Shown here: positions 1,448 through 49,452 of the stretch, piece after piece | How the letters are laid out: each line of letters starts with the position of its first letter | Position numbering within the stretch: the first letter of the stretch is position 1 | NCBI GenBank assembly: GCA_003014445.1 | Contig: PYGH01000003.1 | Span: forward strand, 1-64,000 | Reading direction: 5' to 3' | Source: Fusobacterium naviforme | GTDB taxonomy: Bacteria; Bacillota; Clostridia; Lachnospirales; Lachnospiraceae | DNA length: 64,000 bases | The notes under the pieces: model-generated | What the model was told of the DNA's origin: nothing | Databases searched by the model: none | Seen by the model: only the letters and a program-made list of their open reading frames with translations | Program-made: the position numbers and the translations under genes

Positions 1448-3103
1448 TTAAATCATTCCAAAATGCTCTAAAGCATCTTCGATTGCTTTTTCTTTTTCTT
1501 CTGGGCAATTTGGCACTCTTTGATTTTCTTTCTTACTAAAATTATAATTTTCTCTCTCTATTAGACCATGTTTCCTTTTTATTTGTGCAATATATAGGCT
1601 CGAAACTTTTAGTCCGTATTTATCTAACACATACTTTTTAATTTCTCCATAAGTTGCGTCTTTTGAAAAGTCAATTTCAGATAATTCATCTTCCCCTATT
1701 TCTATATCTAAATGATGTTCTGTATTTAGTTTGGACAACAGAGCTACCGTCTCAACATGCACCGTCTGCGGGAACATATCGACCATCTGCAGCTCCCGAA
1801 GGGTGTAGCATCCATCGGCAAGCAGATATTTAAGATCCCTCGCGAGCGTCGCAGAGTCGCAGCTCACATAGACGATGCGTTCGGGAGCCATGCGCAGCAT
1901 AGTAGCAAGACACTGCTCATCGCAGCCCTTTCTGGGCGGATCGACCACAATCACGTCCGCGCGCTCCCTCGTTTCTTCATACTGGCGGGGCAATACCTCC
2001 TCCGCTTTTCCGACAAAGAATTCCGCATTTGTGATGCCATTCCGCGCGGCGTTCCTCCGCGCGTCTTCGATGGCCTGCGGAATAATCTCCACTCCGTAGA
2101 CCTTTCGCGCGCTGCGTGCCAGAAAGAGAGAGATCGTCCCAATGCCGCAGTACAGATCCCACACGGTCTCCCGTCCGCTGAGCCCCGCATAGGAGAGTGC
2201 AGTTGCGTACAGCCGCTCTGTCTGTACCGGGTTTACCTGATAGAAGGACTGCGCGGAGATGAGAAACTCTGTACTGCCGATCCGGTCGCGGATCACCCCT
2301 GCGCCCGCAAGCAGCTGCGTCTTCTTTCCAAGAATCACATTGCTTCTCTCCGTATTGATATTCTGCACCACTGTCGTCACCGCAGGGAGCTTCATCAACC
2401 TCTCTGACAGAAGCTGCAAGGCAGAATTCTCACCACAGCACTCTCCGTTTGTCACGAGACAGACCATCATCTCCCCGCTCTGGAAGCCCTTCCGCACCAG
2501 AATATGCCGCAGAAATCCCTTCCCGCTCTGCTCATCGTAGGCAGGCACGCCGCACTCCTCCATCCAGCGAAGCACACAGCGGCGAATCTCTGCATTCTCC
2601 TCCACACCAAGAAGACAGTCCTCACAGGGAATGATACTGTGCGTGCGCCCTGCGTAGAAGCCTGCCGTCGGTCTGCCGTCGCGCCCTGTCCCCACCGGAA
2701 ACTGCGCTTTATTCCTGTAACGGAAGGGCTGCTTCATTCCTATGATGGGATGCAGCTGCACGCCGGAGAGCTCCAGTCCGCCGATACGCCGCAGATTTCC
2801 CAGTACCTTCTGCTCCTTAAATTTAAGCTGTGCCTCATAGCGCAGAGCCTGAAGCGAGCAGCCGCCGCAGGAAGCCGCCACCGGACAAGGCGGCGCGACG
2901 CGGTCCGGACTTTTTCGCAGCAGCTCCTGAAGCCGCGCGTAGCCATAGCTCTTCTTGAGCTTCATGACAGAAGCGCGGACTCTGTCTCCCGGCAGAGCCC
3001 CCTTTACAAACCAAAGAAAGGCACCGGTGCGCCCGATGCCCTCCCCCTCCGACCCGAGATCAGTGATATCCAGCTCGATCAGCTGATTCTTACGATAATC
3101 CAT
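1448..3103 (-). CDS. rlmD: 23S rRNA (uracil-5-)-methyltransferase RlmD with an AT-rich C-terminal replacement tail
   Basis: Methylates U1939-type uridine in 23S rRNA using S-adenosylmethionine. The start at 3103 follows GAAAGAGGGACC; a longer frame upstream has no ribosome site. Visible in order: TRAM domain (residues about 1-60), iron-sulfur cysteines CPVAASCGGC (about 75), SAM fold with DLYCGIGTISLFLA, and the catalytic cysteine in YVSCDSATLARDL. The normal enzyme ends near HVETVALLSK. Here about 93 more residues follow, rich in K, E, Y and N (YLDIE/DKYGLKVSSLYIAQIKRKHG type), encoded in AT-rich DNA while the body is GC-rich. Such tails are common on clostridial RlmD, and the 3' end of this gene (rum) is a known integration site of streptococcal conjugative elements. 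The abrupt composition change near 1735 suggests the tail came with the island. Confidence 0.93.
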   Translation of the reverse strand: MDYRKNQLIELDITDLGSEGEGIGRTGAFLWFVKGALPGDRVRASVMKLKKSYGYARLQELLRKSPDRVAPPCPVAASCGGCSLQALRYEAQLKFKEQKVLGNLRRIGGLELSGVQLHPIIGMKQPFRYRNKAQFPVGTGRDGRPTAGFYAGRTHSIIPCEDCLLGVEENAEIRRCVLRWMEECGVPAYDEQSGKGFLRHILVRKGFQSGEMMVCLVTNGECCGENSALQLLSERLMKLPAVTTVVQNINTERSNVILGKKTQLLAGAGVIRDRIGSTEFLISAQSFYQVNPVQTERLYATALSYAGLSGRETVWDLYCGIGTISLFLARSARKVYGVEIIPQAIEDARRNAARNGITNAEFFVGKAEEVLPRQYEETRERADVIVVDPPRKGCDEQCLATMLRMAPERIVYVSCDSATLARDLKYLLADGCYTLRELQMVDMFPQTVHVETVALLSKLNTEHHLDIEIGEDELSEIDFSKDATYGEIKKYVLDKYGLKVSSLYIAQIKRKHGLIERENYNFSKKENQRVPNCPEEKEKAIEDALEHFGMI

Positions 3104-3171
3104 GGTCCCTCTTTCCTGCATTTCCCGCTGAAATACAGACTCCGCGTGCCTTCTATTTCCGCCCACAGACC

Positions 3172-4116
3172 TCACTCTGAGGTCTTTCTCAGATTGCTGT
3201 CCAGAAAACGATTGAAGCCAAGCCAGCCATTGTTGCTGCCGGCCTGCACCAGTATCTCCCTGAAGGTCTCCATCTTCGCATCCGCATTATCCGCGAGATT
3301 CAGAGCCATCGCCTCAATGAGCGCCGGCTTCTTTGGCGACCCGTACTCATACTCTCCGTGATGCGCGAGAATACAGTGGCGGAGCTCCGCTGCCTTCTTT
3401 GCAGGGAAGTCCGGTATCTCCCGTATCTTCTCACCAATCATCTCACAGCCAATCACAATATGTCCGAGCAGCTGTCCCTCATCTGTATAGCTGTTCTCCG
3501 GAAACGCGGAGAGCTCCCGCACCTTGCCGATATCGTGACAGAGCGCCGCTGTGATGAGCAGATCGTGATTCAGGATCGGATAATTGACGCAAAAAAATTC
3601 ACAGAGTCTCGCCACACTCAGGCTGTGTTCGATCAACCCTCCCACAAAGCCATGATGCACGCTCTTCGCAGCAGAATGAATGCGAAACTCCTTCAGAAAC
3701 GTGCTGTCCTCCGCAAAGATCTTCCGCAGCAGCGCATTGAACTGCGCGTCCTTCACCCCGGCGATGCGCTTCTTCAGCTCCTCATACATTTCTTCCGGAT
3801 CGCGCTCTGAGGCGGGAAGATAATCTGCCGGGACATACTCCCCCTCATCCGCGCGCCGTATCCGGCGCACATTTAGCTGCAGGTTTCCGTTAAAGAGGGT
3901 CACATCCGCTTCCACTGCCACATAATCCGGTGCATCAAAATCCCCTATGCCCGGATTCCCGGGATCCCATATCTTTGCGTCCACAGTCCCCGTCCTGTCC
4001 TGCAGGAGCAAACTCTCATACTCCTTGCCGCTCTTGGTCAGAAAAGTTGATTTCTGACGGCAGAGATAGATTGAGGATACGTGTGTATTTTCCCGCAGTG
4101 TCGCTATAAACTTCAT
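3172..4116 (-). CDS. yhaM: YhaM-family 3'-5' exoribonuclease (OB fold + HD domain)
   Basis: 314 residues, the usual YhaM length. An N-terminal OB-fold nucleic-acid-binding domain (about 1-100, including a DAKIWDP motif) is followed by an HD-type metal-dependent domain: H in GGLIEHSLSVARL, the HD pair in ALCHDIGKVRELS, and downstream HCILAHHGEYEYGSPK, then a D in LNLADNADAKMETF. These are the family's metal ligands. YhaM trims single-stranded RNA and DNA from the 3' end in the cytoplasm. The stop lies 68 bases before the rlmD start and both genes share the strand, so co-transcription is likely. The ribosome site is weak (GCGAGAC). Confidence 0.93.
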   Translation of the reverse strand: MKFIATLRENTHVSSIYLCRQKSTFLTKSGKEYESLLLQDRTGTVDAKIWDPGNPGIGDFDAPDYVAVEADVTLFNGNLQLNVRRIRRADEGEYVPADYLPASERDPEEMYEELKKRIAGVKDAQFNALLRKIFAEDSTFLKEFRIHSAAKSVHHGFVGGLIEHSLSVARLCEFFCVNYPILNHDLLITAALCHDIGKVRELSAFPENSYTDEGQLLGHIVIGCEMIGEKIREIPDFPAKKAAELRHCILAHHGEYEYGSPKKPALIEAMALNLADNADAKMETFREILVQAGSNNGWLGFNRFLDSNLRKTSE

Positions 4117-13381: not shown

Positions 13382-14077
13382 TCACAGCCTTTTATCATAA
13401 TAACAGCGATTTGCCTCTATATCCTGCTCCCTGACGAGCTTCACAATCCGGCTGGTTCCCAGCCGATCTGCCCCCAGTGCCAGAAAAGCCTCCGCATCCT
13501 CCAGAGAGCTGATTCCTCCGGCCGCCTTGATCTTCACGTCTTTTCCGACATGATCCCGGAACAGCTTAATGTCCTCTCTCGTCGCACCTCCGGTGGAAAA
13601 ACCCGTGGAGGTCTTGATATAGTCCGCTCCCGCCGCTGTAACAATGCGGCAGGCCGCAATCTTTTCCTGCTCCGTGAGCAGACAGGTTTCTATGATCACC
13701 TTCAGTATCTTACCCATGCAAACCCTGCGGAGCGCCCGGAGCTCCTCCTCAACCTCCGAGAGCTTCCCTGCCTTCAGCGCTCCGATGTGAATCACCATAT
13801 CAATCTCTTCCGCACCGTTTTGCAGAGCCTCCTCCGCTTCAAACAGCTTCGCCTTTGTTGTCATGGCCCCGCTCGGAAAGCCAACCACAGTGCAGATCCG
13901 CATTTGCTCTCCGACATAGGCCCGCGCCTGCTTCACATAACAGGGACTTATACAAACGGACGCCGTTCCATAGCGGATCGCGTCGTCGCAGAGCACCTGT
14001 ACTTCCTCCCAGCGTGCCTCCGGCTTTAAAAGTGTGTGATCCACATGTGCCAGAATTCTCTGTTCTCTCTCGGTCAT
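13382..14077 (-). CDS. deoC: Deoxyribose-phosphate aldolase DeoC
   Basis: 231 residues after GAGAGGGGAGAA. Cleaves deoxyribose 5-phosphate to glyceraldehyde 3-phosphate and acetaldehyde. TIM barrel with DHTLLKPEA (N terminus), [10 protein letters not shown], the Schiff-base lysine in [14 protein letters not shown] (about 160) and the second lysine in [10 protein letters not shown] (about 190). With DeoB upstream in the pathway it routes the sugar of deoxynucleosides into glycolysis. It lies 66 bases after cdd. Confidence 0.97.
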
Positions 14078-14143
14078 TTCTCCCCTCTCTCTACACTCTC
14101 TGAATATTCTCCACTTCTCTGGGCGCCGGAATTCCGTCTCCGT

Positions 14144-14560
14144 TTACTCTCCCTTCAGTGCCGCTCCGAAGCCCAGCGGCAAAAGCTCCTTCAGAAGAAA
14201 ACTCTTCAGCACACCGTCAGAACGTCCCAGAATAATGCGGAAACGCTCCGGTTCACAAAATTCCTGCATCACCTGGCGGCACACGCCACAGGGCGGGCAG
14301 AAATCAAGCCGCTCCTCGCCCGCATGTCCTCCGGCAATCGCAATTGCCAGAAAGTGCCTGTCTCCCTCGCTGACTGCCTTAAAAAAAGCGGTGCGCTCAG
14401 CACAATTGCTCGGCCCGTAGGCCGCATTTTCCACATTACAGCCAGTATAAAGCTTTCCGCTCTCCGCAAGCAGCGCCGCCCCGACCGCATAAGCGGAATA
14501 GGGCGAGTAGGAATGCGCTCTCGCTGCCTCCGCCGCACGATACAGCTCCATATCCGTCAT
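14144..14560 (-). CDS. cdd: Cytidine deaminase
   Basis: 138 residues. Zinc site: CNVENAAYGPSNCAERTAF (catalytic Glu in CAE, first Cys ligand) and CPPCGVCRQVMQEF (two further Cys ligands), the homotetrameric small type. Converts cytidine and deoxycytidine to uridine and deoxyuridine, the substrate of the phosphorylase encoded just upstream. Its ATG directly follows the udp stop codon (TAA-ATG), strong evidence of translational coupling. The C terminus is slightly longer than in Bacillus (LLPLGFGAALKGE). Confidence 0.97.
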   Translation of the reverse strand: MTDMELYRAAEAARAHSYSPYSAYAVGAALLAESGKLYTGCNVENAAYGPSNCAERTAFFKAVSEGDRHFLAIAIAGGHAGEERLDFCPPCGVCRQVMQEFCEPERFRIILGRSDGVLKSFLLKELLPLGFGAALKGE

Positions 14561-15343
14561 TTACTTCTCCCCTCTGTCTGCCCGGATCAGCCCTCTCAGT
14601 GCCTGAACGGCAACTTCAATAGCTCCCTCCGTATCATGCACCTGTGGATTTGGAAGCCCTGCCTTCGCCCGCTCCTGATTTGCGATCACCAGGAAGCAGG
14701 AACCGACCCGGACTCTCAGAAAGCTGCCCTCGATAAAGAGCGCTGCGGATTCCATCTCTGAAGCGAGGCAGCCAAGCCTGAGCCATGCCTGCCATTTATT
14801 CTCCAGCTCATACGACACCGGCATCTGCTCCGGCTCATGCTGACCAAAGAAAGAATCCTTGCACTGCACAACTCCTACATGGTATCTGCGCTCCAGAGTC
14901 TTTGCAGCACAGACCAGTGCTGAGGTGACAGTCCAGTCCGGTACCGCTGGATATTCGATCGGCGCAAATTCCCGGCTCGTTCCCTCCATGCGAACCGCGC
15001 CGTTTGCAATCACGATATCGCCTCCGAGCACTTCCTCCTGCATTCCGCCGCAGGTTCCGACGCGGATGAAAGTATCTGCGCCGCTCTTTACGAGCTCATT
15101 CAGTGCGATGCTCGCCGAGGGACCTCCGATTCCGGTGGAAGTAACGCTGACCTTCTCTCCCTCCAGCAATCCCGTCCAGGTGACGAATTCCCGGACATCC
15201 GCAATACACTCCGCCTTCTCAAAATGCGCCGCTATTTTCTCGCAACGCTTCGGATCGCCGGGCAGTATCACATAGCGTCCCACGTCTCCTCTTCCAATTC
15301 CGGTGTGATACTGCTTTCCGGAGCCCTCTGTATAGTCAATCAT
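14561..15343 (-). CDS. udp: Uridine phosphorylase
   Basis: 260 residues; ATG at 15343 after GGAGGTGAACGC. Nucleoside phosphorylase family [14 protein letters not shown] near the N terminus, phosphate-binding RVGTCGGMQ (about residue 95), and the substrate-specificity region [10 protein letters not shown] (about 200) that binds ribose. The length and [13 protein letters not shown] segment fit uridine rather than purine phosphorylase. It opens the pyrimidine-nucleoside salvage operon. Upstream lies a repeat-rich gap without a clear promoter box. Confidence 0.93.
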
Positions 15344-43175: not shown

Positions 43176-43844
43176 TCACAGCATCACCGCCGCGAGCTCT
43201 TTGTAGGACCACTCTATATGTGCCCTCAGCAGCTCTCTTGCCTCATCCAGATTCCTCTCCTCAATTTTCTGCAGGATGCCCAGATGCTGCCCGGCGCTCT
43301 CCTCAAAGGTATCCGTCAGGCTGTAGGCCACAGCCTGATATCTCCGAATCTGAGCTGCCAGTACGCGAACCAGATTTTTGATATAATTATTGTTGCTCTT
43401 ATCTACGATCAGCTGATGAAATCTGGCATCTATCTCTGCAATTCTCTGATCAGAAATCCCCCCGGCTCTCCTGTAAGCTTCCAGCTCTCTCTGGAAATCT
43501 CCGCGGAGCTCTGCAATTTCAGCCGGCCTGATATTATGGATAGAGGTCTTTAAAGCCAAGAGCTCCATGCTGATGCGCACATCATAAATATCTCTCAGAT
43601 CCGAGAGAGACAGCCCCACCACCACAGTTCCGATTCCATCCAGACAGCGCACATAGTTTTCGCTCTCCAGCTGTGTCAATGCCTTTTTGACCGGTGTTCT
43701 GCTCATACCCAGAGCGCGACCTATATTATTCTCTGTGATGACATCACCTTCCCGAATGACCCCCGATATGATTTGCTCCTTTAAATACCGGTAGGCGACT
43801 TCCGATAATGTCTCTTTTTCAGTTCTTATTAGATCGCTCCTCAT
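43176..43844 (-). CDS. GntR/FCD-family transcription regulator
   Basis: 222 residues. N-terminal winged helix (about 15-75): YLKEQIISGVIREGDVITEN then NIGRALGMSRTPVKKALTQL. C-terminal FCD helical bundle (about 85-215) with the metal-site residues D in DARFHQLIV and H in QHLGILQKI and AHIEW. FCD regulators bind organic acids. It is the last gene of the aconitase X/TRAP operon and the natural regulator of it; a GTATAC-centred palindrome lies at the operon start (49488). Confidence 0.93.
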   Translation of the reverse strand: MRSDLIRTEKETLSEVAYRYLKEQIISGVIREGDVITENNIGRALGMSRTPVKKALTQLESENYVRCLDGIGTVVVGLSLSDLRDIYDVRISMELLALKTSIHNIRPAEIAELRGDFQRELEAYRRAGGISDQRIAEIDARFHQLIVDKSNNNYIKNLVRVLAAQIRRYQAVAYSLTDTFEESAGQHLGILQKIEERNLDEARELLRAHIEWSYKELAAVML

Positions 43845-43883
43845 ATGCTGCTCCCCTTACCGTAGTCTTATAATTCTTTTATC

Positions 43884-44855
43884 TCAGTTTACAAGATCTC
43901 TCGGTTTTTTTCCATCCAGCATGGCAAAAAGATTTTGCAGCGCATATTCCTTCAGCGCGCGGAAGGACTCCACAGAGATGTAGGATACATGCGGCGTCAC
44001 ATAGATACCGGGCGTATTCAGAATCGCCTCATCCCCTCTGGGAGGCTCATTTTTGATCACGTCAAGGACCGCGCCTTCGATCTCGCGCCCCTTTACTGCC
44101 TCTATGAGCTCCCGCTCATTCACCACCCGGCCGCGCGAGGTGTTGATCAGCCATGCGGTATTTTTCATCATTTCAAACTCATGCTTCCCGATTCTGTCCT
44201 CATTTTCAACACAACCCTTCAGATTAATGCTGACATAGTCTGCGCACCGGAAGCCCTCCTCCCAACTCAGCTTCTCCACATTCAGTGCCTTCATCTCCGC
44301 CTCTGAGACGTATTCATCGTAGGCTGCAACATGCACTCCCAGCTGATTGGCTCTCTCTGCTACAGCCTTTCCAATGACTCCCAGTCCTACAATGAGCAAG
44401 GTCTCGTTTCTGAGCCTGTGCCGGTTCTCGGCTGCCGCCATAGCTCCCCAGCGACCATTTCTCACATTTTCCGCAGCACAGCTGCTGTAGGCCGCGATCC
44501 GCTTGTTCACAAAAAACATTGCCGCGAGCACGTAATCGGCCAGATCCTCCGCACAGTAGCCGCTGATATTGGTGACGCTGATGCCTCTGGCTCTCGCTGC
44601 CTCTGTGTCAATGCGGTCATAGCCGCCGCCATAGACAGCGATTCCCTTACAGCGCTCTAACCGCTCCATGACAGCAGCCGGAATATTGGCATAGACCTGA
44701 GCCAGGATACCATCTGCCTGATATCCGAATTCCGCCAGATCCTTTTCATAATTGTAGCCTGAAGTACGTATCTCAACTCCCGGATACTTTTTCTGCAGCT
44801 CCTCCATCTCCAGGTCATAGTCCTTCCATTCCTCATCAATAATCCAGATAAGCAT
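43884..44855 (-). CDS. D-isomer-specific 2-hydroxyacid dehydrogenase
   Basis: 323 residues after AGGAGG. NAD-binding loop LLIVGLGVIGKAVAERA (about 155), catalytic arginine in INTSRGRVVNERELIEAV (about 235), Glu in VIKNEPP (about 265) and His in TPHVSYIS (about 290). Interconverts a 2-keto acid and its D-2-hydroxy acid. In this operon it probably reduces or oxidises an intermediate from the aconitase X step. The substrate cannot be told from sequence; it resembles the phosphoglycerate/hydroxypyruvate and C-terminal-binding-protein-like branches. Confidence 0.93.
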   Translation of the reverse strand: MLIWIIDEEWKDYDLEMEELQKKYPGVEIRTSGYNYEKDLAEFGYQADGILAQVYANIPAAVMERLERCKGIAVYGGGYDRIDTEAARARGISVTNISGYCAEDLADYVLAAMFFVNKRIAAYSSCAAENVRNGRWGAMAAAENRHRLRNETLLIVGLGVIGKAVAERANQLGVHVAAYDEYVSEAEMKALNVEKLSWEEGFRCADYVSINLKGCVENEDRIGKHEFEMMKNTAWLINTSRGRVVNERELIEAVKGREIEGAVLDVIKNEPPRGDEAILNTPGIYVTPHVSYISVESFRALKEYALQNLFAMLDGKKPRDLVN

Positions 44856-44873
44856 ACGACACCTCCTCTTAAG

Positions 44874-46142
44874 TTATAAGAATATCATGGTCATAGGGGC
44901 AAAATAAGTGACCAGCAGCAACACAATGAGCAGCGCAGCAATCATTTTCACAATCTCTCTGGAGAGCGCCTCCATCTTTACCTTTGAGATAGCTGTGGCA
45001 ACAAACAGGTTAATCCCATACGGCGGGGTGCAGAAGCCTATTGCCAGATTCATAGTCAGCATAATACCAAAAGTAATAGGACTCATTCCGAACCCCTTTG
45101 CAATTGGAAGAAGAATTGGTGTAAGTATAATGGTCGCCGGTATATTGTCAATGAACATTCCGACCAGGAGCAGCAGAATATTGATCATCAAAAGCACCAG
45201 AATCCCATTATTACTCAGACCTGTAATCACAGCCGCGATTTTCAGAGGAATCTGCTCCATTGTGAGCAGAGCGGCAAAGGCAGTAGAGAGCCCCACCATA
45301 AATGTAGTGGCCCCATTGATTACAACTGCATCCCTGACGGCCTTATAAGCCCCCGCAAGGTTCAATTCCTTATAAACGAAAACACCGATCACAAAAGAAT
45401 ACACCACTGAAATAACAGCCGCCTCGGTTGGAGTGAACTTTCCAGAATAGATTCCCCCCAGAATAATAACAGGCGAAAGTATCGCCCAGAAGGCTTCCTT
45501 AAAAGACTGTACGATCTCTTTTAGGCTTGCCCGCCTTTCATTCCCCTTGTAACCCTTTTTCTTTGATACCAGATAGCAGACGATCATCAGTGCAATTCCC
45601 ATCATAATGCCAGGCAAAAAACCAGCAGTAAACATATCTGTGATAGAAGAGCCGGATACAACGCCATATATAACAAAGGGAACTGACGGAGGTATAATAA
45701 CCCCTATTGTTCCGGCCGCTGCGGTGAGAGCAGCAGAAAACGACTTGCTATATCCATGCTCTACCATCTGAGGAATCATAAATGCACCGACGGCTGAAAC
45801 GGTCGCTACAGCTGAGCCGGAAATGGCTGCAAAGAACATACATACCACAATCGTAACCATGCCAAGGCCACCTGTGATATGGCCGATGAAGCTCTCGAAA
45901 AAATTGACCAGCCGTCGGGCAATCCCACCGCTGCTCATCAGGTTTCCAGCCAGCATAAAAAACGGAATCGCCAGAAGCGGAAATGAATCAACACCGGCAA
46001 TCGCATTCTGAGATATCAGCAGTGTCGGCATATCCGTAAAGTTCAGCATCGTAATCAGCGTCACAATGCCAATTGCATATCCAATCGGCACGCTGAGAAA
46101 CAGCAGTACAAAGAATAAACCAAATAAAAATAAAGCTTCCAT
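44874..46142 (-). CDS. dctM: TRAP transporter large permease (DctM)
   Basis: 422 residues, about 11-12 membrane helices, typical DctM motifs IPFFMLAGNLMSSGGIARRL, GTIGVIIPPSVPFVIYG and NLAIGFCTPPYGINLFVA. It forms, with the small permease 4 bases upstream, the Na+-coupled channel of a TRAP system for an organic acid. Codon use and AT content differ from the surrounding host genes, as across the whole operon. Confidence 0.96.
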   Translation of the reverse strand: MEALFLFGLFFVLLFLSVPIGYAIGIVTLITMLNFTDMPTLLISQNAIAGVDSFPLLAIPFFMLAGNLMSSGGIARRLVNFFESFIGHITGGLGMVTIVVCMFFAAISGSAVATVSAVGAFMIPQMVEHGYSKSFSAALTAAAGTIGVIIPPSVPFVIYGVVSGSSITDMFTAGFLPGIMMGIALMIVCYLVSKKKGYKGNERRASLKEIVQSFKEAFWAILSPVIILGGIYSGKFTPTEAAVISVVYSFVIGVFVYKELNLAGAYKAVRDAVVINGATTFMVGLSTAFAALLTMEQIPLKIAAVITGLSNNGILVLLMINILLLLVGMFIDNIPATIILTPILLPIAKGFGMSPITFGIMLTMNLAIGFCTPPYGINLFVATAISKVKMEALSREIVKMIAALLIVLLLVTYFAPMTMIFL

Positions 46143-46145
46143 ACG

Positions 46146-46643
46146 TTACTCCTCCCACTGTATTCCCTTAATCGCACACCTCACTTGCTCCGCTAGAGTT
46201 TCCAGAAGCTTGACGCTCAGCACAAATGCACTCAGCGGCAGCACGGAATATACACAGGTCAAAGGGATTCTCATACCGGAGGAGAGCGCCTTCCTCGCCG
46301 CCATGGAGCTACACACCTCACTGCCCTTAATAACTAAAAACACATTGAAGCTAAACCACATCAGATTAATCAGAATTTTTAATATCTCCCTTGCTCTGGG
46401 CCCCTTCAGAAGAGAAAATATCATTTCAACCCTGATGTGCTCTTTTGCGCTGTAAGCTAGGCTGGCCCCAATCCAGATCTGCCAGATGAAAATATACCGT
46501 GCAAGCTCCTCTGACCAGGACAATGAGGCATTAAAAACAGAGCGCATAATGATTTGAAAGAATATAATCAAGGTATTGAAGACCAGACTTGCAACCAAGA
46601 CTCTTTCCTCAAAAAGGGAGAGCGCAGCTACTATTTTTTTCAT
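46146..46643 (-). CDS. dctQ: TRAP transporter small permease (DctQ)
   Basis: 165 residues, four membrane helices. Recognised by position and by SWSEELARYIFIWQIWIGAS with the AYSAKEHIRVEMI motif of the DctQ family. Completes the three-part TRAP system with DctP (upstream) and DctM (downstream). Confidence 0.95.
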   Translation of the reverse strand: MKKIVAALSLFEERVLVASLVFNTLIIFFQIIMRSVFNASLSWSEELARYIFIWQIWIGASLAYSAKEHIRVEMIFSLLKGPRAREILKILINLMWFSFNVFLVIKGSEVCSSMAARKALSSGMRIPLTCVYSVLPLSAFVLSVKLLETLAEQVRCAIKGIQWEE

Positions 46644-46714
46644 GAATTTACCTCTTTAGGAAATACTGCTGTGAGGCTTTGAAACAGCCAGGCCTCACAG
46701 CAGCGTAAACTCAG

Positions 46715-47779
46715 TTAATGATTGTACTTTTCACACATATCGAAGAGCTCTTTTCCAAATTGGCTTTCATACTTCTCATACATCGGAACCAATGCCTCTT
46801 TAAATGCCTTTTTCTGATCTTCACTTAAAATATTGATCTGGAGTCCTCCCTCCGTCTCCAGATCCTTAATCGCCTTTTCATTGTCCTCCAGTTCCATATT
46901 GCGCTGTTCATCGACATAGTTCTTTGCCTCCTCCTTCAGAATCGTCTTCTGATCTTCACTCAGGCTCTGGAACTTCGCATCGTTTATGATAAAGGCAAGG
47001 AAGTTGTGCACGTGCTCATCAATTGTAGAGTACTTCTGAACCTCATAAAACTTATTTGCAAAGGTAAGGGACGGCGGATTCTCCTGTGCCTCAACCGTTC
47101 CCTGCTGAAGTCCGGTATACAGCTCTGTAAAGCTCATCGGTGTCGGATTGGCTCCCAGTGTTTTATAAAAATCTATAAAAATGGGACTCTCCATAACCCT
47201 CATCTTGACTCCTTTTAAATCCTCCGGTTTTTCTATTGCGCCTGTATTTGTAGTTGTACTTCTGGGACCATTGTAGCTGTAGCCCAGGATATCTATTCCG
47301 TTTTGTACAACCTTCTCCGAGAGATAGGCCCCAACCTCATTATCCAGTGCATCAAATGCCGCCTTCGAGCTTGTAAACAGATAGGGCATATCCAGCACAC
47401 CAAATTCTTCTGAATAGGCAGTTAAAACTGAGGTAGAGGGCAGTGCCATATCCAGTGATCCCATCGCAACTGATTCTGTAAGCTGCACATCACCTCCCAG
47501 CGCGCCGTTGGGAAAGATATCTATTTTCAGGCTCCCTCCACTTCTTTCTTCCACATTCTTTTTAAAATTCAGCAACGCTTTATGTGTAGATCTGTCCTCG
47601 GGCTCTACATGTCCGATCTTCAGCACGACCGCATCCTCAGCAGCAGCTCCCTGCTGCGCTTCCCCCGCTGTTTCATTCTGTGCAGCACCTGCATCAGTTC
47701 CCTGTGTCTTCCCTCCGCACGCAGCCAGGGTAACTGCAAAAAGTCCCACTGCTAATAATGTAACCAGATTTTTTTTCAT
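46715..47779 (-). CDS. dctP: TRAP transporter solute-binding lipoprotein (DctP)
   Basis: 354 residues; start at 47779 (GAGGAGGAACTT). Lipoprotein signal VTLLAVGLFAVTLAACGG. DctP fold with the carboxylate-binding arginine in LKGVKMRVMESPIFIDFYKT and the conserved VEAQENPPSLTFANKFYEVQ. The ligand should be a carboxylate, inferred from the family and from the acid-metabolising enzymes in the operon. Confidence 0.95.
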   Translation of the reverse strand: MKKNLVTLLAVGLFAVTLAACGGKTQGTDAGAAQNETAGEAQQGAAAEDAVVLKIGHVEPEDRSTHKALLNFKKNVEERSGGSLKIDIFPNGALGGDVQLTESVAMGSLDMALPSTSVLTAYSEEFGVLDMPYLFTSSKAAFDALDNEVGAYLSEKVVQNGIDILGYSYNGPRSTTTNTGAIEKPEDLKGVKMRVMESPIFIDFYKTLGANPTPMSFTELYTGLQQGTVEAQENPPSLTFANKFYEVQKYSTIDEHVHNFLAFIINDAKFQSLSEDQKTILKEEAKNYVDEQRNMELEDNEKAIKDLETEGGLQINILSEDQKKAFKEALVPMYEKYESQFGKELFDMCEKYNH

Positions 47780-47845
47780 AAGTTCCTCCTCTTCCATTTC
47801 TATTTGTATGTTTGTGTACCTTTGCTTCCAGTGTTTCCTGAGCTA

Positions 47846-48247
47846 TTACTCTATAATCACCTCTTCATGATCCGCGTCTACCGTCACAATATCACCCTCT
47901 CTGACATCCTGATAGAACTGAGGGTCCACCTGATCCACCATCGGAATTTCAAACAGAATCGCGCTTGTCACCAGAACGGTCTCCGGTCTCTCTACGATCA
48001 TGGCATAGGGCTGATTCTCATGCTTCATCAGCTGAAACAGACCGTCCGCCTGTACCACTGAGCTTCCCTTGCCGCTCGGAAACGCAAGCACCTTGTTTGC
48101 AATGATCTTCCCGCAGAGATCATGTGCCTGTTCGATCACCTCTCCGGTCTCTGGCCGAATCAGATAAAACATTACATCATCCTTCGACAGCACAATTTCT
48201 GCTTTTGCACATCCATCCGATATCTTATGGCAATGATATTTTTTCAT
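47846..48247 (-). CDS. Aconitase X small (swivel) subunit, DUF126
   Basis: 133 residues. DUF126-type swivelling domain with a SSVVQ-loop in LAFPSGKGSSVVQADGLF, which in the family forms part of the active site, and a C-terminal PQFYQDVREGDIVTVDADHE strand pair. It works only with the large subunit whose stop codon overlaps its ATG (TAATG). Confidence 0.9.
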   Translation of the reverse strand: MKKYHCHKISDGCAKAEIVLSKDDVMFYLIRPETGEVIEQAHDLCGKIIANKVLAFPSGKGSSVVQADGLFQLMKHENQPYAMIVERPETVLVTSAILFEIPMVDQVDPQFYQDVREGDIVTVDADHEEVIIE

Positions 48248-49452
48248 TATCGAACCTCCCCGCTAACTGCCGCCTCAATACAGGTGTCCAGATCTCTGAT
48301 TACAAAGTGAATATCTCTTCTCTGTGGGTAATATGCACACTTGGGAGACTCTGTCACTCCGACCTTTCCTTTCAGAAAGTGCCAGCAGGGCTGATCCGGA
48401 CAGCTGTCCGGAACGATATGCGCGCCAACAGCCTCAAGCGCATCATATATCCCCATCCTCTGCGCCATCTGCTCCACATGGCTCGAGGTCAGAATCCACA
48501 TATCCTTCTTCAGTTTTCTGTCTCCTATTCTGCTGAGAATATGCCGGCACTCCTCCAGCGTGAAGTGCGGACATCCAAACATTGCGAAATCAATCTCCCT
48601 GTTTCCCTTAAGAGATATTTCCTCCAGCACCTCCTCGAAATCCTGATCCGTTATTGTGACAACTCTCTCCGGCTCTTTTCCGCCAAACGCAGTCTCAAGA
48701 TCCGGTGCTTCCGGTGTAAAGCCTGCAATGTGGTACATGTCATAGGCACCCGAGGTATTCAGCTCTGCGCCGAGATTTCTGAGAGCCTCCTTGCTGATGT
48801 TCTCCGGCAGGCCGGTGAAAACCGGAATGCCATGGCCTATCTTCTTCCCGCACATACCCAGAATGTGATAGCAGTAATCGTTCTTCATCTCCGCTTCCAC
48901 ATTCACCAGTATAGTTCCTCTGCGATTTTCATCAAAGAGCAGACCATACTCCGGTACATAGCCGGTAATTGCCGCAAACAGAGCGGAGTTTGCTCCCTCT
49001 CTGTTGGATCGGGCTCCCCAGACTGCATTTACAAAGGGAGTTGCACTGGACTCAGAAAACGCACAGACCTCTCCAAAGGTTGGGACATTGGTGTCAATAT
49101 AAGGTGTACAATTATAACTGAGCTGGGCTCCCAGAGCCCGATACGCCTTTTCTGTTCTTTCCATCATCCTGTAATCTTCATCGCTGACCTTCTGAATCCT
49201 CTTAAAGTAAGAGAGACAAAATCCCGGGTTTACCGTGGGCGTCACACGACATTTTGCTCCGAGCCCGACCATTTTTTCAGCCAGCCACAGATCCGCATCC
49301 TGATTGCTCAGCGCTACATGAGCCCTTGTAATCGGAACCATGCGCTCAGCACCGAAAGATTCTCCAATCGCCACCTGAATTTTCATGGCAAGTTGTGCGC
49401 CCTCGCCATATCTTCCCTCCAGCAGATCCCGTTGATCCTGTGTCAGTTTCAT
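48247..49452 (-). CDS. Aconitase X large catalytic subunit, DUF521
   Basis: 401 residues; ATG at 49452 after GGAGGTAATC. DUF521 (AcnX) enzyme with iron/cluster cysteines in TPTVNPGFCLSYF, DFAMFGCPHFTLEEC and VPDSCPDQPCWHF. In bacteria separate-subunit AcnX enzymes are cis-3-hydroxy-L-proline dehydratases; archaeal relatives dehydrate phosphomevalonate. The presence of a TRAP transporter, a GntR regulator and a 2-hydroxyacid dehydrogenase, but no proline-type reductase or pyrroline enzyme, leaves the true substrate open. First gene of the operon. Confidence 0.9.
   Translation of the reverse strand: MKLTQDQRDLLEGRYGEGAQLAMKIQVAIGESFGAERMVPITRAHVALSNQDADLWLAEKMVGLGAKCRVTPTVNPGFCLSYFKRIQKVSDEDYRMMERTEKAYRALGAQLSYNCTPYIDTNVPTFGEVCAFSESSATPFVNAVWGARSNREGANSALFAAITGYVPEYGLLFDENRRGTILVNVEAEMKNDYCYHILGMCGKKIGHGIPVFTGLPENISKEALRNLGAELNTSGAYDMYHIAGFTPEAPDLETAFGGKEPERVVTITDQDFEEVLEEISLKGNREIDFAMFGCPHFTLEECRHILSRIGDRKLKKDMWILTSSHVEQMAQRMGIYDALEAVGAHIVPDSCPDQPCWHFLKGKVGVTESPKCAYYPQRRDIHFVIRDLDTCIEAAVSGEVR

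Follow-up and report, generated by a model that had tools for sequence, protein, structure and literature searches.

A low-GC aconitase X operon with a TRAP transporter and its possible role in histidine catabolism

A question of substrate

What does an aconitase X (AcnX) enzyme do when its two genes are followed by a complete transporter, a D-2-hydroxyacid dehydrogenase and a regulator? This question is raised by the first 64,000 nucleotides of contig PYGH01000003.1 of Fusobacterium naviforme (Lachnospiraceae), hereafter called the window. At 43176-49452 it holds seven open genes on the minus strand, with the AcnX large subunit first and a GntR/FCD regulator last. A reading of this stretch made without database searches (the sequence-only reading) had grouped the two AcnX subunits, a full tripartite ATP-independent periplasmic (TRAP) system, the dehydrogenase and the GntR regulator as one unit. 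The seven genes are on the same strand and are confirmed as such by Pfam matches that are all above the gathering score:

48247..49452, minus strand: AcnX large subunit (AcnX_L), 401 amino acids, bacterial type II; PF04412, 433 bits
47846..48247, minus strand: AcnX small (swivel) subunit (AcnX_S), 133 amino acids; PF01989, 86 bits
46715..47779, minus strand: DctP, TRAP solute-binding lipoprotein; PF03480, 291 bits
46146..46643, minus strand: DctQ, TRAP small membrane subunit; PF04290, 102 bits
44874..46142, minus strand: DctM, TRAP large membrane subunit; PF06808, 404 bits, and TIGR00786, 438 bits
43884..44855, minus strand: D-2-hydroxyacid dehydrogenase; PF02826, 152 bits, and PF00389, 72 bits
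43176..43844, minus strand: GntR-family (FCD) regulator; PF00392, 55 bits, and PF07729, 75 bits

We propose, with a probability of about one half, that the products of this operon take up an imidazole hydroxy acid and dehydrate it, and so feed it into the breakdown of histidine. What can be read from the sequences is the operon itself, an AcnX subclass with a conserved core, the proximity of relatives of this AcnX to histidine utilization (hut) genes, and the lack of a detected histidine ammonia-lyase (HutH) in six genomes whose AcnX lies with HutU and HutI.

An AcnX without the landmarks of the known functions

The enzyme has the type II architecture of AcnX, an AcnX-domain large subunit with a separate swivel subunit. 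It aligns over its length with TkAcnX, the phosphomevalonate dehydratase of Thermococcus kodakarensis, and a structural model of AcnX_L matches TkAcnX (7cnr_A) with a Z score of 47.3, a root-mean-square deviation of 1.9 and 36% identity over 379 residues. When AcnX_L is aligned with 7cnr and 7cnp/7d2r, C115, C294 and C351 fall on the ligands of the cluster and E134, K371 and Y375 on the catalytic residues; S62 is the corresponding catalytic residue of AcnX_S (alignment to 7cnr_B). This core is shared by the subclass, membership of which was set at a large subunit at least 50% identical. When 90 aligned subclass large subunits were compared with 15 outside sequences, E134, K371, Y375, C115 and C294 were present in all 90 and C351 in 89, with one X.

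The landmark residues of both known functions are absent. The sequence-only reading had set aside the hydroxyproline and phosphomevalonate routes because further enzymes that they need are missing. Where the proline enzyme has Asp203 and Thr72, the window's enzyme has Ala47 in AcnX_L and Val64 in AcnX_S, the latter matched through the TkAcnX alignment, and the phosphate loop Gly48-Val49-Ser50 of TkAcnX falls in a three-residue deletion in the pairwise alignment. Hydroxyproline and phosphomevalonate dehydration were therefore rejected as functions. Judged by its residues, the window's enzyme belongs to AcnX and has neither known function, like subclasses IIc-IIf, which a 2021 study found to have neither set of landmark residues and to which it gave no function (PMC8184944).

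The subclass has its own signature instead. A47, S49, Q51, D54 and W56 occur in 89-90 of the 90 large subunits, whether linked to hut or to TRAP genes. Ser49, Gln51, Asp54 and Trp56 lie within the stretch that holds the substrate-specific residues of the solved AcnX enzymes, and Asp353, Pro355 and Trp357, which adjoin the last cluster cysteine, are nearly invariant as well. In alignment A3 the large subunit of the window is joined by 48 of 89 listed relatives; the second AcnX of locus L061, with one in-frame stop, was excluded.

AcnX among the genes of urocanate degradation

The gene company of the subclass points to histidine catabolism. With a single genome scanned for each species, 174 relatives were obtained and 80 of them kept, and with loci added from further genomes, 83 distinct subclass loci could be set against 14 loci of other AcnX subclasses. 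Pairs of loci from one genome (L055/L067 and L116/L117) or from one species (L062/L064 and L081/L094) were counted separately, L118-L120 were excluded because they duplicate the contigs of L108, L106 and L109, and clusters of neighbours were annotated through representatives and not gene by gene. A hutU, hutI, ftcD or cyclodeaminase gene (at least 35% identity) lies near AcnX in 21 of the 83 loci and in none of the other 14 (Fisher p 0.035, uncorrected for relatedness). As a rough guide, for a genome of 3 Mb and a hut cluster of 10 kb, a random gene would be expected to lie no more than 10 kb from the cluster in about 1% of cases. The HutU and HutI representatives are over the NCBIfam cut-offs, and HutD was assigned by Pfam. 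The HutF-like and M20 amidohydrolase neighbours miss the cut-offs of the hutF and ErtE equivalogs, and their roles, like those of the IorA- and IorB-like proteins treated below, are given by context. The HutH-like neighbour in L055 is also under its equivalog cut-off.

Two loci illustrate the arrangement. In L101, from Heyndrickxia acidiproducens, the order is RpiR-M20-HutF-like-AcnXL-AcnXS-2HADH-SsuA-like-HutU-HutI-ABC permease-ABC ATPase, on a single strand and with gaps of at most 36 bases (2HADH, D-2-hydroxyacid dehydrogenase). In L121 it is HutD-RpiR-M20-HutF-like-AcnXL-AcnXS-HutI-HutU, with no recognised transporter or dehydrogenase in the locus; the completeness of its genome, G233, is estimated at 100%. 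Profile searches found neither HutH (TIGR01225) nor any member of PF00221 in G233, G457, G458, G459, G460 and G462, the six genomes behind L101, L107, L099, L059, L065 and L121. HutU and HutI stand beside AcnX and on its strand in the first five of these genomes, and are divergent from the adjoining AcnX in G462; the hut genes of L065 are divergent from AcnX. The genome of L050 has a single, distant PF00221 member of 410 bits, which is under the hutH cut-off.

A HutH over the cut-off is missing from 8 of the 19 genomes with hut-linked AcnX (L096 and L098 fall outside this set), compared with 8 of 117 HutU-positive genomes of the window's phylum without the AcnX subclass (p 0.0002). When the comparison is restricted to genomes with an observed HutU (none was seen for G461 and only a fragment for G480), it is missing from 6 of 17 (p 0.003). 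The phylum sample itself contains only five genomes with the subclass, the window's own included, too few for a test of HutH.

The position of AcnX, inside operons for urocanate breakdown that have no recognised urocanate-making enzyme, is persuasive, and in several relatives AcnX seems to take the place of histidine ammonia-lyase. The sequence-only reading had AcnX produce a keto acid that is then reduced. Because genomes that gave no HutH match have AcnX in the midst of genes for urocanate breakdown, urocanate is the likelier product, and the order is probably the reverse, with the dehydrogenase before or beside AcnX.

From hut-linked relatives to the window

Does this link extend to the TRAP-linked AcnX of the window? 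Hut-linked and TRAP-linked enzymes are interleaved in one clade of 90 rows (support of 100 in the SH-like approximate likelihood ratio test, SH-aLRT; 8 changes per label), in what is a quick tree with long outside branches. In the window's own genus, L117 has AcnX, TRAP, nickel-pincer (NPN) isomerase, cyclodeaminase and FtcD genes in one same-strand run, and its contig also holds a canonical HutH at 13545-15047.

HutU over the cut-off was found in 54 of 61 AcnX genomes that were reached through loci without hutU, hutI or ftcD (11 of 11 and 43 of 50 in two genome sets). In the background, sampled from the window's phylum and free of the AcnX subclass, it was found in 117 of 393. The Fisher p of 1e-18 is uncorrected for relatedness and for the difference between the samples, the 61 genomes spanning several phyla and the background being the window's phylum. 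G003, a genome of the window's genus, is counted among the 54 although L117, one of its two AcnX loci, holds ftcD. The HutU gene of G003, at G003:C139:2052-3629, has one in-frame TAA. A HutH-like gene is present in the loci that led to six of the 61 genomes (L048, L049, L052, L055, L081 and L094).

The window's genome (locus L192) encodes HutU (433 bits), HutI (429 bits) and HutH, all over their cut-offs. They are unlinked to the operon: all three are on contig C3 and the window is on C5. Two more HutH-like genes of this genome are under the hutH cut-off:

G000:C18:18907-20388: HutH-like gene, 480 bits
G000:C3:759557-761047: HutH-like gene, 359 bits

TRAP genes (DctP or DctM) are found in 35 of the 83 subclass loci, a D-2-hydroxyacid dehydrogenase at least 35% identical to that of the window in 29, a nickel-pincer isomerase of group 22 (NF052515; for example L063:8679-9941) in 32, and a relative of the LarA-type racemase in nine. 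At least one D-2-hydroxyacid dehydrogenase or Lar-type nickel-pincer racemase/isomerase is present in 64 of the 83 loci. The window's dehydrogenase has both the NAD-binding and the catalytic domain (PF02826 and PF00389); no NCBIfam equivalog is over its cut-off, and its sequence matches in the PDB are general members of the family.

A possible route from imidazolelactate to urocanate

From these observations we infer the substrate, its chirality, the direction of the reaction and the ligand of the transporter. The TRAP system, of which all three proteins are over their gathering scores, agrees with the uptake of an organic acid suggested before, and would import imidazolelactate, or 2-hydroxy-3-(imidazol-4-yl)propanoate. 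AcnX, as a two-subunit iron-sulphur dehydratase, would remove water from it to give urocanate, which would be passed on to HutU and HutI, encoded on the other contig. The D-2-hydroxyacid dehydrogenase would interconvert D-imidazolelactate and imidazolepyruvate, and imidazolepyruvate made from histidine could thereby enter too. Lar-type nickel-pincer isomerases would be the partners of AcnX in relatives, and those of group 22 may share an imidazole hydroxy acid as substrate with it. The 2-hydroxy isomer is favoured because 2-hydroxy acids are the substrates of D-2-hydroxyacid dehydrogenases and Lar-type racemases in the cases that have been characterised. Work on microbial-derived metabolites has included both D- and L-imidazole lactate (PMC12583827).

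The proposal may extend to the whole subclass, for which we see slightly under even chances. It would provide an entry to histidine degradation that is independent of HutH, in which free imidazolelactate is dehydrated to urocanate without activation by coenzyme A (CoA) and without the 4-methylideneimidazole-5-one (MIO) cofactor. The subclass, with importers, racemases and dehydrogenases of its own, would be distributed over anaerobes that in many cases ferment amino acids.

Several observations weigh against the imidazolelactate proposal, and the first group concerns the distribution of genes. Collapsed by lineage, according to our own estimate, HutH is missing in 3 of 11 or 2 of 10 cases (p 0.05 or 0.18), so that the missing-HutH pattern is clear per genome and weak once corrected for lineage. 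The window's genome and 11 of the 19 genomes with hut-linked AcnX do carry HutH, and in Sporolactobacillus two tested species are without it (L099 and L107) and three have it (L111-L113). Eight sampled HutU-positive genomes without the AcnX subclass miss the HutH cut-off, G249 only just; therefore there are other causes of HutU without HutH. Seven of the 61 genomes have no HutU over the cut-off, four of them without any match (L082, L094, L104 and L114) and three with fragments. Within the genus there is no tight pairing either, with HutU in five of seven genomes, AcnX in two of seven, and three genomes that have HutU and no AcnX. The MttB, betaine-transporter and Ldh_2 neighbours are left unexplained by the proposal.

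The chemistry is a further objection. In the AcnX enzymes characterised so far, the hydroxyl leaves from the beta carbon and the proton from the alpha carbon (PMC8184944). The hydroxyl of imidazolelactate sits on the alpha carbon, which would call for reversed binding in AcnX, and the ring, not the carboxylate, would activate the proton. Aconitase acting on isocitrate is somewhat comparable, in that another group activates the proton there.

Alternative explanations

The order of the sequence-only reading survives in a rival that keeps a limited chance of being right. Here AcnX would apply beta-hydroxyl chemistry to an imidazole compound that bears another polar group at C2, namely imidazole-glycerate or beta-hydroxyhistidine, and yield imidazolepyruvate, which the dehydrogenase would turn into imidazolelactate or IorAB would oxidise. 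This is the chemistry known for AcnX (PMC8184944), and the catalytic residues are conserved. RidA-like genes, in 7 of 83 loci, fit an enamine or imine product. IorA-like genes occur in five of 83 loci; the IorA- and IorB-like proteins miss the cut-offs of the IOR models, IOR_alpha included. L082 and L114, whose genomes gave no match to HutU, have IorAB-like genes beside AcnX, in keeping with a keto acid as product. Neighbours that resemble histidinol dehydrogenase (HisD), short-chain dehydrogenases/reductases (SDR) or zinc-dependent alcohol dehydrogenases could supply such an acid by oxidation of a polyol. Imidazolepyruvate is not known to reach HutU other than by transamination and the action of HutH, and in the six genomes named above AcnX accompanies hut genes and no HutH or relative of it was detected. 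The locus of L121, moreover, holds no dehydrogenase.

It is rather unlikely that the TRAP-linked AcnX of the window has shifted to another hydroxy acid, such as a C4-C6 or sugar acid, and that the hut linkage of its relatives does not apply. No hut gene was seen among the open reading frames examined round the operon (ten proteins scanned with profiles), and the genome has a HutH of its own. The solved structure nearest to DctP, by sequence and by model, is the sugar-acid binding DctPAm (7bbr), with many rows tied; the comparison of models names no ligand, as sugar-acid, dicarboxylate and other binders are tied within one Z unit at the top. The DctP alignment holds the window's protein and 27 of 31 listed relatives. 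Against such a shift stand the subclass-specific residues common to TRAP-linked and hut-linked AcnX, their interleaving in the tree, the TRAP-AcnX run beside ftcD in the same genus, and HutU in 54 of 61 genomes of this kind.

Urocanate could also be made from 3-hydroxy-3-(imidazol-4-yl)propanoate, which we regard as improbable. This isomer fits the known geometry of AcnX with its chemistry unchanged, and would also account for the hut linkage and the missing HutH. It leaves the 2-hydroxy-acid partner enzymes of 64 loci unexplained.

A dehydratase for cis-3-hydroxy-L-proline or phosphomevalonate has very little in its favour. The best family matches point there, that to NF051439 with 227 bits, far below the cut-off of 700, and three of 83 loci have a gene near AcnX of the Ldh_2 family, which includes pyrroline-2-carboxylate reductases; the replaced landmark residues and the deleted archaeal phosphate-binding loop speak against both functions. 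That AcnX is itself a non-MIO histidine ammonia-lyase replacing HutH, as the bare locus of L121 in a genome without detected HutH might suggest, is hardly credible, for many carriers also have HutH, the TRAP and 2-hydroxyacid partners would be left without a role, and the known members of the aconitase family eliminate a hydroxyl and not an amine.

Origin and further features of the operon

The operon has probably been transferred horizontally, as the sequence-only reading had supposed from its composition. Its guanine-plus-cytosine (GC) content is 47.9%, about 8 points lower than the 55.5% of the rest of the window, and when GC was computed along the window as had been proposed, the eight lowest windows of operon length (500-base steps) all overlapped it. 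AcnX_L is present in two of the seven genomes of the genus. Homologous operons occur in Acidaminococcus (L036 and L039), and blastn, within its sensitivity and the 10 kb fetched, found no flanking DNA in common with the window. The nearest relatives of the window's AcnX are in Acidaminococcus, and the tree of AcnX sequences nests both among Peptoniphilus. Taken together, the low GC, the patchy presence in the genus, the unshared flanks and the nesting fit a transfer. A second low-GC stretch, at positions 1-2000 of the window (about 36% GC), overlaps the end of a gene resembling an rRNA uracil methyltransferase (1448-3175, minus strand; named by eye).

Within the operon, the AcnX_L and AcnX_S genes overlap by one base. 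The DctP frame 46715-47782 opens with CTT, and its start is therefore likely to be the ATG at 47779. A pattern scan, in which the numbers found were little above those in shuffled sequences, gave two signals:

49537-49509, minus strand: promoter-like site TTGACA-17-CATACT upstream of AcnX_L
49639-49611: terminator-like hairpin between the upstream ATP-grasp gene and AcnX_L

Other neighbours of the subclass

A number of loci show a different company. SDR, zinc-dependent alcohol dehydrogenase and histidinol-dehydrogenase-like genes are near AcnX at L098:5957-9029 and in L072, L095, L100, L110 and L111, sometimes with an RbsA-type ABC importer; histidinol-dehydrogenase-like enzymes occur in nine of the 83 loci. 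Perhaps these enzymes oxidise an imidazole diol to the hydroxy acid. Catabolism of an imidazole-glycerol polyol, which these genes had brought to mind, was set aside as the sole explanation: G459 has SDR and HisD-like genes, and no HutH was found in it.

At L109:2667-18309, and similarly in L106, AcnX and HutU are accompanied by an OpuAC betaine-type binding protein, two MttB methyltransferases and a corrinoid protein, and it is possible that such a locus acts on a methylated histidine resembling hercynine. In metagenome-assembled genomes of Synergistaceae (L087 and L089-L092), AcnX stands with a group 22 NPN isomerase and a gene like an ADP-forming acyl-CoA synthetase, and L089, L091 and L092 also have IorAB-like genes and a D-2-hydroxyacid dehydrogenase; these loci may disproportionate a hydroxy acid for ATP. 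At L051:3252-4966 and L055:11633-13350 the AcnX pair linked to hut genes or to HutH is immediately followed by another, distant AcnX pair with 26-27% identity. L114:722-9929 combines AcnX with a GlcD/GlcF-like pair of FAD-linked oxidase and iron-sulphur genes, IorAB-like genes and a dehydratase of the IlvD/EDD family.

Significance and comparison with known systems

The proposal joins a known enzyme family and a known pathway in a way that we have not found described. The sequence-only reading had spoken of a possibly undescribed pathway, in line with the open literature, where no paper among the matches listed ties AcnX to either imidazolelactate or histidine; this scope does not include preprints or most subscription papers. 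A testable function is thus offered for an AcnX clade that by its residues falls among the subclasses IIc-IIf left uncharacterised in 2021, and a source of urocanate is suggested for bacteria that have HutU and HutI without a detectable histidine ammonia-lyase. If the substrate is a 2-hydroxy acid, the chemistry of AcnX would be broader than now described.

Carriers of the subclass include Acidaminococcus, Peptoniphilus, Blautia and Clostridium symbiosum, all from genera known from the gut and vagina. If the route is real, imidazolelactate, which is known as a metabolite of microbes, would be linked with urocanate. The link may reach on to imidazole propionate, which is formed from urocanate and is of medical interest.

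Among the known systems, TkAcnX (7cnr/7cns) is alike in its two subunits, its fold, the three cluster cysteines and the catalytic Ser62 of the small subunit, Glu, Lys and Tyr. The window's enzyme differs from it by the missing GVS phosphate loop, by other gene company and by the nearly invariant residues of its own subclass. With cis-3-hydroxy-L-proline dehydratase it shares the superfamily, the catalytic core and the setting in a catabolic operon with a transporter; Asp203 and Thr72 are replaced, the window's AcnX is encoded by two genes (as in IIa), and among the annotated neighbour families only the Ldh_2 gene could belong to proline metabolism. The hut operon contributes HutU, HutI, HutF-like and, in some loci, HutD proteins to the surroundings of AcnX in relatives, whereas several AcnX operons have no HutH and the hut genes of the window's genome are elsewhere. 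The reductive Stickland route of aromatic amino acids, in which FldABC converts phenyllactate to cinnamate, follows the same logic from a 2-oxo acid via a D-2-hydroxy acid to an alkenoate, and IorAB-like and ADP-forming CoA-ligase-like genes occur in some AcnX relatives as well. The difference is that no CoA transferase or radical dehydratase is present among the annotated neighbour families of AcnX, and that the dehydration proposed here would be direct and of the aconitase type.

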